Below are positions 2,243 to 7,697 of a stretch of 64,000 bases of DNA, piece after piece (within the stretch, counting starts at the first letter, position 1; every line of letters starts with the position of its first letter). Below the pieces are notes generated by a model. That model saw nothing but the letters and a program-made list of their open reading frames with translations. It searched no databases and was not told where the DNA came from. Source of the stretch: Gracilimonas sediminicola (GTDB lineage: Bacteria > Bacteroidota > Rhodothermia > Balneolales > Balneolaceae). The stretch covers positions 1,494,001 to 1,558,000 of the forward strand of contig NZ_JANDBC010000001.1 in NCBI RefSeq assembly GCF_024320785.1, given 5' to 3'. Both the position numbers and the translations under genes were made by a program.

Positions 2243-3304
2243 ATGGAAAAAGTAATTTCAGGTATTCAGCAAATTGGAATCGGTATTCCGGATGTCCACA
2301 AAGCCACGGATTGGTATCGCCGTCATTTTGGTATGGACATCAAAGTGTTTGAAGACTCTGCCACAGCTGAACTGATGACACCATACACCGGCGGCGAAGC
2401 TCATGACCGAACGGCCGTGCTGGCTCTGAATATGAAAGGTGGGGGTGGATTTGAAATCTGGCAATACACCAGCCGCACTCCTCAACCCGCTGACTTTGAC
2501 TTAATGATGGGTGATTTGGGAATCAACGTGGGCAAGATCAAGTCCATTAACGTGCCCGGAACCTATGATGAAATGGAAGCTGCAGGTTTGGACATTCTCA
2601 CTCCCCTTGAGAAAAACCCCGCAGGTGATTATAACTTTTTTGTGAAGGATTTGTACGGCAACATCTGGCAGGTGGTTAAAGGGCTAGATTTCTTTAAAAC
2701 CAAAACACCGGCATCTACCGGCGGAGTTGTTGGGGCCATCATCGGCTCCACGGATATCGAAAAAGCCCGTAAGCTTTATTCCGATGTTTTGGGTTATGAT
2801 GAAGTGGTGTATGATAAAACCGCTGCATTTGATGACTTCAAAGGATTGCCCGGTGGTGAAGACCGGTACCGCCGTGTTTTACTGCGCCATTCCCAGTCCC
2901 GTCAGGGTGGCTTCAGCCAAATGTTTGGTCCTACTGAAATAGAACTCATCGAAGTTCAGGAGCGCGAACCTCGTAAACTTTTTAAAGACCGATATTGGGG
3001 AGATCTGGGTTTTATCCATCTCTGTTTTGATGTACAGGGAATGGATGCCCTGAAAGAAGAGCTGGAATCCAATGGGTTTCCGTTCACCGTAGATTCTGCC
3101 AACAGCTTTGATATGGGCGAAGCCGCCGGGCGTTTTACCTATGTGGAAGATCCCGATGGCACCCTCATAGAGTTTGTGGAAACGCACAAGGTCCCAATCA
3201 TCAAAAAGATTGGTTGGTACATTGATATGACCAAGCGAGATCCCAAAAAGAATCTTCCCAACTGGATGATCTCAGCCCTTCGGTTTAGCCGAATGAAGGA
3301 TTAA
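2243..3304 (+). CDS. two-domain VOC (glyoxalase/dioxygenase superfamily) protein
   Basis: 353 residues from the ATG at 2243. A longer frame from a GTG at 2177 gives a leader with no domain features, so it was not chosen. Two vicinal-oxygen-chelate domains are visible. The first (about 4-150) runs from IQQIGIGIPDVHKATDWYRR to DLYGNIWQVV, and the second (about 160-320) from IIGSTDIEKARKLYSDVLGY to YVEDPDGTLIEFVETH. Metal-ligand-like His and Glu occur in the second domain (GFIHLCFD and LIEFVE). The duplicated layout resembles extradiol dioxygenases and 4-hydroxyphenylpyruvate dioxygenase-like proteins, but the substrate cannot be assigned. It closes the plus-strand block that starts at the window edge. 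Confidence 0.75.
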   Translation: MEKVISGIQQIGIGIPDVHKATDWYRRHFGMDIKVFEDSATAELMTPYTGGEAHDRTAVLALNMKGGGGFEIWQYTSRTPQPADFDLMMGDLGINVGKIKSINVPGTYDEMEAAGLDILTPLEKNPAGDYNFFVKDLYGNIWQVVKGLDFFKTKTPASTGGVVGAIIGSTDIEKARKLYSDVLGYDEVVYDKTAAFDDFKGLPGGEDRYRRVLLRHSQSRQGGFSQMFGPTEIELIEVQEREPRKLFKDRYWGDLGFIHLCFDVQGMDALKEELESNGFPFTVDSANSFDMGEAAGRFTYVEDPDGTLIEFVETHKVPIIKKIGWYIDMTKRDPKKNLPNWMISALRFSRMKD

Positions 3305-3331
3305 TCAAACACCTTTTTAAATAATTGCCAA

Positions 3332-3844
3332 CTATTGTTGGCGAGTGCTCTCCCCTGGATTCAGGGGTTTTCCGCCTTCCAGTACATCCATTTCACCGGG
3401 AAGAATTTCTTGTATATAAGATGCATTTCGCTCGGTATCGTACTGAACCCTGTACTTCTTATTTTCTTGATACAAATCAAGCATACCGGTTAGCCGGCCA
3501 TCTCGTAACAATAGTGTGGCAAGGCCTTTTTCTTTGTTCCCAATATTTGCTGAAATGGAAGTAATTCCGGGTATGGTTTCCTGAACACGCCGCACATCTA
3601 ATGTTAAGGCCATTTGCCCCTCTTTTGTTTTGACCTCAAAAGTGTCTCCCTTTTTCAATACGCTTAGAGCCTCTATATCCGCTTCTAAATAATATTTTTC
3701 AGCTGATACAGTATCTGACGGTTCGCTCTGATTTGGTTTCACCTCTTTCATTACACTTGCTTCTTTTTCCTGCTCCTTGTTTGAACAGGAGAACAGAGAA
3801 AGCACGGACACCAATGCGACGAATATGGGGATTGTATTCTTCAT
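3332..3844 (-). CDS. lipoprotein resembling the metzincin prodomain (putative protease partner/inhibitor)
   Basis: 170 residues with a lipoprotein signal peptide ending LFSC (Cys20), then a Ser/Glu/Lys-rich linker to about residue 50. Residues about 52-145 align in order with residues about 49-138 of the metalloprotease just upstream. LKKGDTFEV pairs with FKKGADFFF, IPGITSISA with LPGYISIIA, RDGRLTGM with HQGRLNGI, and YRVQYDTERNASYI with LSLRYDEDSAQNYM. It lacks the CGV segment that follows the prodomain in the protease. Its start is one base past the protease stop, so translation is probably coupled. Inference: a membrane-held free prodomain that could chaperone or inhibit the protease. No database family was recognised. 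Confidence 0.7.
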   Translation of the reverse strand: MKNTIPIFVALVSVLSLFSCSNKEQEKEASVMKEVKPNQSEPSDTVSAEKYYLEADIEALSVLKKGDTFEVKTKEGQMALTLDVRRVQETIPGITSISANIGNKEKGLATLLLRDGRLTGMLDLYQENKKYRVQYDTERNASYIQEILPGEMDVLEGGKPLNPGESTRQQ

Positions 3845-3845
3845 A

Positions 3846-6503
3846 CTACTTTAATAACACCATTTTGCGGGTTAGCAGTTGTGATCCTGTCTGTAGGCGA
3901 TATATATAAACACCGCTCGATAATCTATCCGCATTGAATATGACTTCGTGTTCGCCCCGGTTCTTTTTTTGGTTTAGCAATGTTGCCACTTTTTGACCTT
4001 GCATATTATAAACCGTCAACTTCACATTCCCTGGCTCCGATACATTAAACCGGATTGCAGTAGATGGATTAAAAGGATTGGGATAATTCTGATGCAGGTT
4101 AACCTGCTCTGGTATTTCCCCAGGCTCGTTAGATACCATTTCATTCACCGTCAAGGTAACCGGTATTTCAAACTCTGGGTTTTCTGGGTCATTGGTCGTT
4201 ACTTTCAGGAGAGTTTCGTAAGTGCCGGAATCAATTCCTTCTGTGTTGAATGTTAGCTCAAGCTGACTCGCTCTTCCCTCCAGTGACACGCCACTCATTG
4301 ATGGAACGGAGAGCCATTCATAGGGTGCTCCGCTCTGCTTTATTTCAATATTGTCAATATCCATATACGTCCCTGAAACTTGATTTCGATGCAGCACTTG
4401 TATTAAGCCGGGTGTGAAACCTTCAAGAAAACTGTTCTGAGAAATCAGGTTGCCATTGTAATAGTAGTCGATAGTTTCGTTGGAGTTGTTATACACGATT
4501 CTCAGCTCTCCATATACATTTGGTGAAACACTGGCGCCGGTACCAAAAAAGGATACTTGTCCGGATTCATTCTCATCTGCTGCAAACATAGTTTGATTGG
4601 CTATAATCACCCCACTCGAAAAGCCCCCGGTTTTCCCATCAAAAATGTAAAAATCATAGGTCTCGCTTGTGTTTGAAACCAAGAATCTGATAGAAATTTC
4701 ATATTCCCCAAAAAGCTGATACCCAAAAAATGGAGAGGCTATAAATTGAGTATTACCACTTCCGTCATATTCCAGTCTCAAATGTTGGGTTCCGGTATTA
4801 GGGTTCTCACCTGATATCTTAAACTCGGAATCGGAAAGAGCCCTCCACCCGGCACGCCCCTTATAGCTGCCGGAAGAAAAACCCTCATTACTTTCAAAAG
4901 AAGTATTGTAAATAACTTCTTCAGCAAGAGCAGTTTTCAGAGGATTCATAAAACCCGAATAATTCGCAGGGTTTTGCAACGGACTCTCAAGAAAAACGGG
5001 CTTTATTTCCTCTCCTTCCCGTTGGGTCTGTTTCTCAACGGTTTGAGAAGTAAAATCAAAATCTGCGCTCCACATCAAGGCACTGTTTCCTGAATTGGAA
5101 ATATCTATTGTGGCAGTGAATTCGTCTTCCCGGTTCATTTCTACTTCTATTTCGTTTGCAGAAACCGCAGCTACGGGGGCATCAACCACCGATAGCCGGT
5201 AAGAGGCTACGCTCCATTTGATCTCTTTCATGCTTCTCGCATTGTCTTCCGGTGTTTGAACATTATTCGTTCCCGTTGGCACACCCTGCCATGTTAAATC
5301 CGGGCTGGAAAAAATCGGCGCCTCGCTCAGTCCGTCTGCATAGGCCATAACAGTATGAAAGTCACTGCTTTGGTTCTGATATCCCACTGAATAGTGATAT
5401 AAACCTCCGGCATCTGTCGCTGAAGAGCTGTTTTGCGTTCGCGAATGCGCATTTCCCATGTTGTGCCCTATTTCATGAATGAGTGTATAGCCGTTTGCAA
5501 TTTGTTGTACACGGTTCAGGTTAAATGCATAGGCTTCCTCTCCGCCGGAACTACCCAGTCGCCAACCCAATCCACCGGTATCATCTATTTTAGCGATAAG
5601 TGATACTACGTCTGCACCGTATTGATTCCGCAAGTCGTGGACATCTTCCATGTAACCGTCATACTCTGCCTCAAACTGTGGGTTATCCGGGTTTTGAGAT
5701 AATCTCCGAAGCCGGTCTTCAGACTCTACTCCATCATTTTCTTCGTCATAGTTGGTTTTGTAGGTATGAACCAGTCGCAAATTGATTCCTGCCTTACTGT
5801 TATCGAGGGCTGTTTGGGAGAGAGTCATTGCCTGAGCCATAGTAGCATTTATATCTCCACTCGAAGAAGTGGCCGCCCAGGTTTCAGCAGCGTTTGTATA
5901 AACAAGCATTACATCAATAGTGACACTGTCATCTGCCGAGCCATATAAAAGAGTGGGTTCGCTACCTTTTCGTGCTTTTGTATAGTTTGCTTTGTCGGAA
6001 CCAAATTTTCGTGGTGGGGTTATTAGTGACCTTTTACTCTCATGTACTCCACAGGCCAATAACTCACCGGCAGACTTCTTTTTCTTTGACATGTAATTTT
6101 GCGCTGAATCCTCATCGTAACGCAAGCTCAAGGCCGAGTCATGCGACTTGTGGTATATTCCGTTTAAGCGTCCCTGATGATATGTAAAAGATAAAACCCG
6201 TTCTGTTTCCCCTTTCTCTGCCGCTATTATTGAAATATAGCCCGGCAGGTATTCCATTCTCCGGGTTACCGTAAATTCACGGCTGCCTTCCCCCGTTTCA
6301 AAAAAGAAGTCAGCTCCTTTTTTGAATTCCGGATTACTGAAAACTTCATTGTTCAGTGAATAGAACGTTCTGTTTGGGTTTTCAGGATTTACTTTAGCAA
6401 AAGAAGGGAGTACTTCATTAAGTAAAAACTTCTTTTGAGCTGTTGCACTTGTTGAGGCAAGGCAAATTCCAACAAGCGATAACACAATGATTTTAATTTT
6501 CAT
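3846..6503 (-). CDS. secreted reprolysin-like zinc metalloprotease (metzincin) with C-terminal sorting domain
   Basis: 885 residues. Signal peptide 1-22. Prodomain about 30-150, ending in LLACGVHES, where C151-G152-V153 resembles the cysteine switch of metzincins. Catalytic domain about 190-440 with HEIGHNMGNAH (343-353), a full HExxHxxGxxH zinc motif, and a Met-turn TVMAY near 386. Then comes a beta-sandwich (about 445-490), a LamG/concanavalin-like region (about 530-730), a second Ig-like stretch, and an 80-residue C-terminal sorting domain from residue 806 (NYPNPFNPST, ending RKMVLLK), used by type IX or related export. It is probably secreted or surface-attached and degrades extracellular protein. 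Its own prodomain is echoed by the lipoprotein gene that follows one base later. Confidence 0.88.
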   Translation of the reverse strand: MKIKIIVLSLVGICLASTSATAQKKFLLNEVLPSFAKVNPENPNRTFYSLNNEVFSNPEFKKGADFFFETGEGSREFTVTRRMEYLPGYISIIAAEKGETERVLSFTYHQGRLNGIYHKSHDSALSLRYDEDSAQNYMSKKKKSAGELLACGVHESKRSLITPPRKFGSDKANYTKARKGSEPTLLYGSADDSVTIDVMLVYTNAAETWAATSSSGDINATMAQAMTLSQTALDNSKAGINLRLVHTYKTNYDEENDGVESEDRLRRLSQNPDNPQFEAEYDGYMEDVHDLRNQYGADVVSLIAKIDDTGGLGWRLGSSGGEEAYAFNLNRVQQIANGYTLIHEIGHNMGNAHSRTQNSSSATDAGGLYHYSVGYQNQSSDFHTVMAYADGLSEAPIFSSPDLTWQGVPTGTNNVQTPEDNARSMKEIKWSVASYRLSVVDAPVAAVSANEIEVEMNREDEFTATIDISNSGNSALMWSADFDFTSQTVEKQTQREGEEIKPVFLESPLQNPANYSGFMNPLKTALAEEVIYNTSFESNEGFSSGSYKGRAGWRALSDSEFKISGENPNTGTQHLRLEYDGSGNTQFIASPFFGYQLFGEYEISIRFLVSNTSETYDFYIFDGKTGGFSSGVIIANQTMFAADENESGQVSFFGTGASVSPNVYGELRIVYNNSNETIDYYYNGNLISQNSFLEGFTPGLIQVLHRNQVSGTYMDIDNIEIKQSGAPYEWLSVPSMSGVSLEGRASQLELTFNTEGIDSGTYETLLKVTTNDPENPEFEIPVTLTVNEMVSNEPGEIPEQVNLHQNYPNPFNPSTAIRFNVSEPGNVKLTVYNMQGQKVATLLNQKKNRGEHEVIFNADRLSSGVYIYRLQTGSQLLTRKMVLLK

Positions 6504-6563
6504 AGAGGGTTTTTAGCTGGATCTTTGAACTAATATCACAAATCTATCTGAATAAAACCGATT

Positions 6564-7697
6564 TTAAGCAAAACGGTCTGCCAGGCGATTTATTAAATAT
6601 CCGCTTTCGTTAAGTGCTTGGGTCGCAAACTTTCCAAAGAAATCGGTTACCCCTTCGAACTCTTTGATGAATCCTTCCCGGTCATTTTTTTCTACCATTT
6701 GCACCAGTTTTTTGTGATGATCAAAGAACTTTAGCAATAAGTCCCGGCGCTCTTTATTCGCAAATACAATATCGGCATACAGCTCGGCATCCTGTGCAAA
6801 AATCCGCCCGGTCATCATCAATTCTGCCCGATAAATGGGGGAGGAGTAATCGAGCATGTCAGTCGGTTTTAAATCATACTCTTCCATAAACGAGCCGTGC
6901 AGCAGCGCCACAAAGTGACGAAGCCCCTGAACCAGGTGCATCACATGATCGTGTTTTTCGGGATCTGCATGTATAACCCGCATTCCCCAAAGCTCACATT
7001 GGTCCTGGAACCACTTTGCCTGCTCTCCATCGCGGGCATCGCAAAAAACCATCAGCTGCTTGGATAAGTTCTGAACATCCGGGCCGTGCATAGGGTGCAA
7101 TCCAACAACCGGTCCCTCATGCGCCTGTAGCATAGCCTGAATAGGGTTTGATTTGTTACTGGTGAAGTCGGCAAGAATGGTGTCTTTCTTCAGACGTCCA
7201 CCCAGCCTCTCAATCACACTTTCCGTTACGTTGATTGGAACGGTAACAATAACCATATCCAGCTTTGGCGACATTTCTTCCAGCTCATGCCAGTTCTTTT
7301 TGTCTATAGAATAGGTTATGTGCCCGGTTTGATCGGCCATGCGCTTATACAGCTTACCCATTCCGCCTTCACCGCCTATAAATAGAATATGCTTGGGCTC
7401 TTCGGTAGCAATAGGAAAGGTTTCCTGCGATTGCGTTGCCCGCGAGGCCGTCATAATCATCCTCAGAAAATCCTCAGCCCATTCCGGGTCAATCCCTTTG
7501 TTTTGGGCAAGCTCTTTGAAAGCTTTCGACTTTTCCTCTTCCCTGGCCGGCACAAAAACAGGTAGCTGGTTTTCTACTTTTCGTTTGATGACATCCCGAA
7601 CAATTTCACCCCGCTCCGAGAGTAAGTCCAGAATTTGTTCGTCAATTTCATCAATTCGCTTTCGGGGCGATTCTAAATCTTTATGTCGATGGGACAT
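6564..7697 (-). CDS. tyrA: bifunctional chorismate mutase/prephenate dehydrogenase (T-protein)
   Basis: 377 residues from the ATG at 7697; a GTG 39 bases upstream adds residues outside the family and crosses a dispersed repeat. The N-terminal AroQ-type chorismate mutase domain (about 8-90) has RKRIDEIDEQILDLLSERG and the later R-E-EEK segment. The NAD-binding dehydrogenase domain follows, with ILFIGGEGGMGKLY (glycine motif 108-114), VTVPINVTE, LADFTSNK, and GLHPMHGP carrying the catalytic His. It makes 4-hydroxyphenylpyruvate from chorismate for tyrosine synthesis. The CM-first order matches enterobacterial TyrA and some Bacteroidota. It stands alone on the minus strand. Confidence 0.9.
   Translation of the reverse strand: MSHRHKDLESPRKRIDEIDEQILDLLSERGEIVRDVIKRKVENQLPVFVPAREEEKSKAFKELAQNKGIDPEWAEDFLRMIMTASRATQSQETFPIATEEPKHILFIGGEGGMGKLYKRMADQTGHITYSIDKKNWHELEEMSPKLDMVIVTVPINVTESVIERLGGRLKKDTILADFTSNKSNPIQAMLQAHEGPVVGLHPMHGPDVQNLSKQLMVFCDARDGEQAKWFQDQCELWGMRVIHADPEKHDHVMHLVQGLRHFVALLHGSFMEEYDLKPTDMLDYSSPIYRAELMMTGRIFAQDAELYADIVFANKERRDLLLKFFDHHKKLVQMVEKNDREGFIKEFEGVTDFFGKFATQALNESGYLINRLADRFA

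Follow-up and report, generated by a model that had tools for sequence, protein, structure and literature searches.

The window analyzed in this study is a 64,000-nucleotide stretch of Gracilimonas sediminicola DNA (contig NZ_JANDBC010000001.1, positions 1,494,001 to 1,558,000), and the system in question is a pair of adjoining genes in it that encode a metzincin protease and a small lipoprotein resembling the prodomain of that protease. A sequence-only reading of the window had described two open reading frames (ORFs) separated by one base; this layout was confirmed, and the two genes, both on the minus strand, form what looks like one operon. The features of the locus are as follows, with positions counted in the window:

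3846-6503, minus strand: metzincin protease gene, 885 amino acids (ORF with Reprolysin_5, Por_Secre_tail, and Mep72 model matches), encoding in order a signal peptide, a prodomain, a reprolysin-type catalytic domain, a long middle region, and a type IX secretion system (T9SS) type A sorting tail
6075-6434, minus strand: cis prodomain, approximately residues 24-143 (alignment to the lipoprotein and predicted protease model)
6045-6053, minus strand: CGV, a cysteine-switch-like element, residues 151-153, with the Cys at 151 (a Cys lies hereabouts in 27 of the 27 cis prodomains examined)
5274-5921, minus strand: catalytic domain, approximately residues 195-410 (family matches and model)
5445-5477, minus strand: zinc motif HEIGHNMGNAH, protease residues 343-353
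3858-4085, minus strand: T9SS C-terminal sorting domain, residues 807-882 (Por_Secre_tail match)
3845, minus strand: single base between the protease stop and the lipoprotein start (ORFs)
3332-3844, minus strand: lipoprotein gene, 170 amino acids, free prodomain copy (ORF, alignment, profiles, and model)
3785-3796, minus strand: lipobox-like LFSC, with lipidation predicted at Cys20 from the sequence only
3377-3709, minus strand: prodomain-like domain of the lipoprotein, approximately residues 46-156, with a strand, a short helix, and seven strands (alignment and predicted model)

The signal peptide of the protease was judged by eye. Pfam assigned the catalytic domain to Reprolysin_5 (E 3.8e-12), and the C-terminus matched Por_Secre_tail (E 5.9e-12). 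In NCBIfam, the catalytic domain matched the Mep72 model best (3.5e-33, residues 195-448), at a score below the curated cut-off of that model; the Mep72 profile starts at the catalytic domain, and no Pfam family covers the prodomain. A PorU-type T9SS sortase is encoded in the same genome (1098 bits, above the cut-off). Positions 3200-6700 showed no excess of promoter or terminator patterns over shuffled sequence. The weak Pfam and NCBIfam labels returned for the lipoprotein, namely UFD1_N2 (0.013, residues 36-88), BSAP5b (4.6e-4), and PG1828 (0.0011, over the signal peptide), were far below their cut-offs and were set aside.

Homology and conservation of the free prodomain genes

The mature lipoprotein and the protease prodomain yielded a local BLOSUM62 score of 78; 2000 shuffles averaged 29.5 and peaked at 52, and none reached 78. 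The blastp comparison of the two produced an E value of 5e-7 with composition statistics off, and a search of the lipoprotein against its own genome ranked the N-terminal part of the protease second, behind the lipoprotein gene (E 7.2e-5). Two hidden Markov models (HMMs) were built, a cis HMM from 27 cis prodomains (29 minus two near-duplicates) and a free HMM from 25 free proteins (27 minus two near-duplicates). Run on 967 ORFs, the cis HMM recovered every one of the 27 free genes (E 2.6e-22 to 2.0e-9); besides these genes only proteases and one protease remnant appeared at E<=1; the free HMM recovered the window protease at E 6.6e-8. The profile-profile comparison of the free lipoproteins with the cis prodomains revealed a probability of 99.6 (E 1.5e-23, score 156), and 50 column-shuffled controls scored 17.6 or lower. 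The shuffles and the controls together rule out a chance alignment. The paired segments on which the earlier reading had based the likeness (KKGD/KKGA, IPGITSISA/LPGYISIIA, and DGRLTGM/QGRLNGI) all fall within the significant alignment. These findings suggest that a prodomain of the ADAM/Mep72/CpaA metzincin type has become detached and is now encoded as the lipoprotein.

A switch-like Cys was present in every one of the 27 cis prodomains examined in the window's family, at the position where ADAMs and MMPs carry their cysteine switch. The element is present in the window cis prodomain and absent from the window lipoprotein, in which Cys151 of the protease is unmatched and LFSC (Cys20) is found; the earlier statement that the lipoprotein lacks the CGV and has a lipobox instead was therefore correct. 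After two near-duplicates were dropped, 23 of 25 free copies carried no Cys beyond the signal sequence, and the segment, followed by eye through intermediate sequences, reads like DVLEGG or DVLPGS in the free copies versus DVISCG in the cis prodomains. The two free copies with a Cys, L056 and L062, have no lipobox; the switch Cys is absent from the lipobox-bearing copies. Both L056 and L062 stand upstream of proteases whose catalytic domain directly succeeds the signal peptide, with no prodomain, an arrangement that resembles a zymogen naturally split in two within the same family. The split-type protease at L062 (G055, 2498-6034) has a middle region matching leucine-rich-repeat effector models between the catalytic domain and the T9SS tail. 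Outside the window's family, 18 of 40 cis prodomains carry a Cys beyond residue 100, not all of them at the switch position. In the predicted protease model, residues 121-166 (the Cys included) have a predicted local distance difference test score (pLDDT) below 50, and the placement of the CGV at the zinc is not confidently modelled.

The pairing of the two genes is conserved. The lipoprotein query matched 31 of the 92 genomes of the window's family, with cis prodomains counted in, and gene order was read in 33 fetched loci and the window. Of the 27 free prodomain genes, located in 26 genomes, 17 lie directly downstream of their protease and 6 lie upstream; one has a protease on each side, and three sit at loci without an intact protease. 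The sequence-only reading had named conservation of the neighbors as a test of its proposal, and the genes are indeed conserved neighbors. Of the 23 free genes with a protease on one side only, 21 lie within 30 bases of it, and the other two have over-long frames. Within the genus of the window, a free gene was found in 9 of 10 genomes, and in 8 of the 10 it adjoins a protease with an open frame and a zinc motif; the gap from stop to start was 1-2 bases in seven of these eight intact pairs, the eighth (L042) having an over-long frame. By eye, a cysteine closes the signal sequence in 25 of the 27 free proteins. A strict lipobox pattern was satisfied by 15 of the 24 proteins run, and the nine failures were L056 and L062, with none by eye, and seven proteins with looser sites or an over-long frame.

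Free genes were also identified outside the family. One other family of the order has a downstream lipoprotein (L203, free HMM 3e-9). In the class to which Shewanella belongs, one genome encodes a lipoprotein upstream of a protease that keeps a prodomain itself (L139, 2.2e-11). In another family of the phylum, one genome encodes a free protein of 201 amino acids (L202, free HMM 8e-27) that has a Cys near its end and no lipobox by eye, and the contig runs out without a protease. When 345 genomes were drawn evenly from the phylum, at least 24 of them matched, and 14 of the 15 matches in frames shorter than 300 amino acids belonged to the window's family; the count is a lower bound because the scan did not report the free gene of L203 in a drawn genome.

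Likeness to CpaB and BamI

The AlphaFold model of the lipoprotein (pLDDT 81, predicted TM-score (pTM) 0.69) consists of a strand, a short helix, and seven strands. A structural comparison had been proposed in the sequence-only reading, and the prodomain in the protease model (pLDDT 77, pTM 0.82) revealed the same elements in the same order when secondary structures were compared. A Foldseek search of the Protein Data Bank (PDB) with the lipoprotein placed CpaB chains of 6o38 at ranks 1-6 (prob 1.00, E 5.8e-3 to 4.3e-2, TM approximately 0.5), with no match at E<=0.001. VIA-align likewise aligned the lipoprotein with CpaB at Z 11.0 (107 of 129 residues, root-mean-square deviation 3.8 A), and the next rows were five ADAM17 entries (8snl, 8snm, 9o54, 9o58, and 9q7y) at Z 7.0-7.9, close to the first unrelated row at 6.9. 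The match to the ADAM17 prodomain is thus the weaker of the two, with Foldseek probabilities of 0.57-0.72 and Z values in a range where common arrangements also score. The pro and catalytic parts of the protease model matched the ADAM17 zymogen at Z 19.0 over 308 residues, and the protease model matched CpaA at Z 18.0 and pro-fragilysin at Z up to 17.4.

At the sequence level, the A4 profile matched 6o38_A (CpaA) at 1.5e-5; the CpaB chains of 6o38 had no match with three profiles at E<=5, 5, and 10. Sequence searches of solved structures found nothing for the lipoprotein, its profiles, or the BamI-like proteins described below, and no Pfam prodomain family was among the matches (E<=1) of 35 A3, 24 A6, and 12 A5 members. 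It is therefore the modelled fold alone that points to kinship between the lipoprotein and CpaB. CpaB of Acinetobacter is described as anchored by an N-terminal helix and needed for CpaA secretion (PMC4713064, PMC7542363); its C-terminal tail sits in and blocks the CpaA active site, "similar to zymogens", and CpaB without the anchor is secreted along with CpaA (PMC7542363). CpaB thus resembles the window lipoprotein as its best solved fold match and as the partner of a related metzincin, but it has a transmembrane anchor and its partner is a substrate of the type II secretion system (T2SS), whereas the window protease carries a T9SS tail. The ADAM17 prodomain may share the fold of the lipoprotein and has in common with the window cis prodomain a cysteine-switch-like element; it is eukaryotic and part of its protease, whereas the window lipoprotein is a separate gene product.

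A second relative is BamI of Pseudomonas aeruginosa, which counteracts the toxicity of Mep72 in Escherichia coli, forms complexes with Mep72 in vitro, and is co-transcribed with it (PA2782/PA2783); Mep72 is a T2SS substrate (PMC4334185). In a word search of that paper, 'prodomain' and 'lipoprotein' were absent and 'propeptide' occurred twice. The Mep72 model was searched in the family of G256, a genome that carries RsmY and presumably belongs to Pseudomonadaceae; BamI-like genes stand for BamI in these comparisons. The model matched 29 of 398 genomes at E<=1e-10, 19 of them above the cut-off. A BamI-like gene stands upstream of the protease in 25 of 30 Mep72 loci (15 of the 25 built the BamI-like profile), and in 22 of these 25 a prodomain would not fit in the protease frame; in the other three (L154, L155, and L171) an over-long protease frame overlaps the BamI-like gene. 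Among the five loci without a BamI-like gene, three have a cis prodomain, L168 has a prodomain in a separate overlapping frame, and L169 has none. At L168 (frames 2031-2762 and 808-2091), the prodomain frame lies just upstream of the Mep72-related protease and overlaps it, which represents a frameshift or another split.

A further profile contained only cis prodomains from outside the family of the window and was free of BamI sequences. Among 744 ORFs at E<=0.05, this outside profile recovered 19 of the 25 BamI-like neighbors and the four other prodomains and nothing else, and the free HMM recovered 7 of the 25 BamI-like genes and nothing else. Profile against profile, the BamI-like proteins matched the outside profile with a probability of 96.8 (E 2.2e-10, score 69.8, controls 13.2 or lower) and, in the other direction, 92.9 (E 3.7e-7); the free lipoproteins matched it with a probability of 99.1 (E 9.9e-19), with column-shuffled controls far lower. 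The direct comparison of BamI-like proteins with the free lipoproteins gave a probability of 85.9 (E 5.2e-6, score 45.4; 50 controls 17.8 or lower), and that with the cis prodomains of the window's family was weak (probability 24.2, E 8e-4; 13.0, 0.0022 in a second comparison). A Cys beyond residue 100 was found in 0 of 15 BamI-like proteins. Because the BamI-like proteins match cis prodomains profile against profile, BamI can be read as a prodomain separated from its protease.

Like BamI, the window lipoprotein would be a small envelope protein beside a Mep72-type metzincin (the window protease scoring below the curated Mep72 cut-off), encoded on the same strand as its neighbor, and the two families share sequence homology through prodomains outside the window's family. 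They differ in several respects. The BamI-like gene lies upstream, whereas the window lipoprotein gene lies downstream; BamI-like proteins have a hydrophobic N-terminal stretch and no lipobox, whereas the window lipoprotein has LFSC in its sequence; the partner of BamI lacks a prodomain, whereas the window protease keeps its own; and Mep72 is a T2SS substrate, whereas the window protease has a T9SS tail.

Proposed function of the lipoprotein

We consider it somewhat probable that the lipoprotein is an envelope-held prodomain that acts in trans as an inhibitor or immunity protein for the neighboring protease. The lipid predicted from the lipobox would anchor the detached prodomain to the cell envelope, where the lipoprotein would dock on the catalytic domain of its neighbor in the same way as the cis prodomain and keep prematurely matured or returning enzyme inactive. 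Because the lipid would hold the lipoprotein back, the exported enzyme would depart through the T9SS without it; the anchor would thus be a simple means of retaining the inhibitor in the cell. Protection is rated above folding because the protease already has its own prodomain for folding and latency.

The orphan lipoproteins bear on the same question. Three genomes (G028, G069, and G073) keep the lipoprotein, and no intact Mep72-type protease was found in them. In G028, a protease remnant lies between the intact lipoprotein and the next gene (L036, 3929-5170); it retains parts of the N-terminal 106 residues and residues 605-885, the catalytic domain is gone, and the genome has no other match to the Mep72 model. 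In G069 and G073, the Mep72 model search found no Mep72-type protease, and the two orphans (L050 and L052) occupy the same chromosomal site. Their dN of 0.42 against a dS of 2.3, a value in the saturated range above 2, suggests that selection kept the protein, provided that the protease loss predates the split of the two genomes. A lipoprotein kept in the absence of its protease is easier to reconcile with protection than with folding.

Several observations weigh against this interpretation. The zinc-site Cys is absent from the lipid-anchored copies, and any inhibition must therefore be steric or use another ligand. The related proteases L061, L064, L065, L067, and L068 have no free partner found adjoining, and the same holds for the second Mep72-type protease of the window's genome (L210 3349-7002, in G000:C1; 1217 amino acids, cis prodomain with ACGV); a free partner is therefore not generally needed. 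The orphan evidence comprises three genomes of 96, 94, and 71% completeness (G028, G069, and G073) and one search model, and the protease loss in G028 appears recent. The fold of the lipoprotein is not fully independent of the homology claim, because 34 of the 35 rows in its AlphaFold alignment are prodomains. Regarding BamI, the cis HMM of the window's family found no BamI-like gene among the 744 ORFs, and the direct match to the free lipoproteins was direction-dependent, falling to a probability of 35.0 (E 4e-4) in reverse. In addition, the closest structural match is to CpaB, for which a role as secretion chaperone has been described.

This last point leads to the chief alternative, itself rather unlikely, in which the lipoprotein is a T9SS counterpart of CpaB that holds the protease export-competent in the periplasm and hands it to the secretion machine. 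The requirement of CpaB for CpaA secretion and the listing of the gene beside Mep72 as a putative chaperone (PMC4713064) agree with a chaperone, as does the gap of 1-2 bases in seven of the eight intact pairs of the genus. The protease has a cis prodomain of its own, however, and protection is rated above chaperoning because relatives with cis prodomains, the second protease of the genome included, have no adjoining partner found and because the three orphan-bearing genomes keep the lipoprotein with no intact protease found.

We regard as quite improbable an independent envelope function, in which a descendant of the prodomain now binds other metzincins or a surface partner and its adjacency to the protease is history. 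The shared site of the orphans in G069 and G073 is in line with this possibility, and in a quick tree (no bootstrap) the lipoproteins form a lineage of their own that does not track the prodomain of each neighbor; adjacency, however, is kept in both gene orders and within 30 bases in 21 of 23 cases. It is highly improbable that the lipoprotein is a recent tandem copy lacking any separate function, even though it copies a domain of the adjoining gene. Cis and free copies separate in the same tree, lipoproteins of different genera group together rather than with the prodomain of their own neighbor, and a recent duplication of that prodomain is thus unsupported. L056 and L062 are placed among cis prodomains from other phyla, chiefly Bacteroidota (SH-aLRT 90); when both are removed, a single origin of the remaining 23 free copies is not rejected (p-AU 0.296), and the free set as a whole takes three changes on the tree. 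The dN/dS ratio between the window and G028 lipoproteins, approximately 0.18 (NG86) to 0.28 (YN00), also argues against a functionless duplicate.

Concerning novelty, the sequence-only reading had proposed a free, envelope-held prodomain homologue in a two-gene system not yet described. The homologue and the conserved pair stand; the claim that the system was undescribed does not, since the relatives Mep72 and CpaA have membrane-anchored partners encoded next door, BamI and CpaB, and an envelope-anchored partner beside a Mep72/CpaA-type metzincin is known already. In the literature searched, which left most subscription papers uncovered, we found no account of a partner in lipoprotein form, the co-occurrence of such a partner with a cis prodomain, the cysteine pattern, a metzincin prodomain acting from a separate gene, or BamI and CpaB as ADAM-type prodomains. 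The description of BamI and CpaB as detached ADAM-type prodomains may be new, although a likeness of CpaB to prodomains may already have been published in part. A kinship of CpaB with SRPBCC/Aha1 has been supposed.

A broader and unlikely possibility is that BamI, CpaB, and the lipoproteins constitute one family of detached ADAM-type prodomains, that the prodomain left its polypeptide more than once, and that in the lineage of the window a switch-less, lipid-anchored second copy became an immunity protein, which was kept after enzyme loss and protects against the protease of neighbors. Such a family would unite three things described separately, namely BamI as an inhibitor, CpaB as a secretion chaperone, and the ADAM-type zymogen prodomain. 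If so, the unexplained working of BamI and the CpaB tail in the active site would both follow from the biochemistry of a trans-acting prodomain, and genomes would hold ready pairs of a metzincin and a candidate specific inhibitor that can be tested one to one.

Comparable pairs and further gene arrangements

KLIKK proteases are exported by the T9SS, and Spi resembles the propeptide of SpeB. In Tannerella forsythia, the potempins are small lipoproteins adjoining KLIKK proteases and are reported to inhibit the adjacent protease specifically; the passages on them mention no prodomain likeness (PMC7296668). Compared by description only, potempins and the window lipoprotein are both small lipoproteins beside a protease, but the potempin genes lie upstream. 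An inhibitor gene is coupled to a protease gene also in Spi/SpeB and Bti/Btp; two Bti proteins are predicted lipoproteins, and the Bti proteins are called staphostatin-like (PMC3462683). These partners are cysteine proteases, whereas the window enzyme is a metzincin.

Other arrangements were observed at related loci. L055 (G037) and L057 (G072) are clusters of two cis-prodomain proteases and one free lipoprotein, in which one inhibitor may serve two enzymes. At L085, L087, L089, L090, and L097, in four genomes labelled Bacteroidales and one labelled Chitinophaga, a different small lipoprotein-like protein (104-183 amino acids) is encoded 4-9 bases downstream of a related protease, the frame of which is broken at L090. 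These proteins were not found by the prodomain profiles and are perhaps another type of inhibitor in the same place. At L086, a frame of 254 amino acids (2683-3447) directly upstream of a full protease encodes a signal peptide and a prodomain but breaks off early in the catalytic domain; this truncated duplicate could serve as a free prodomain.

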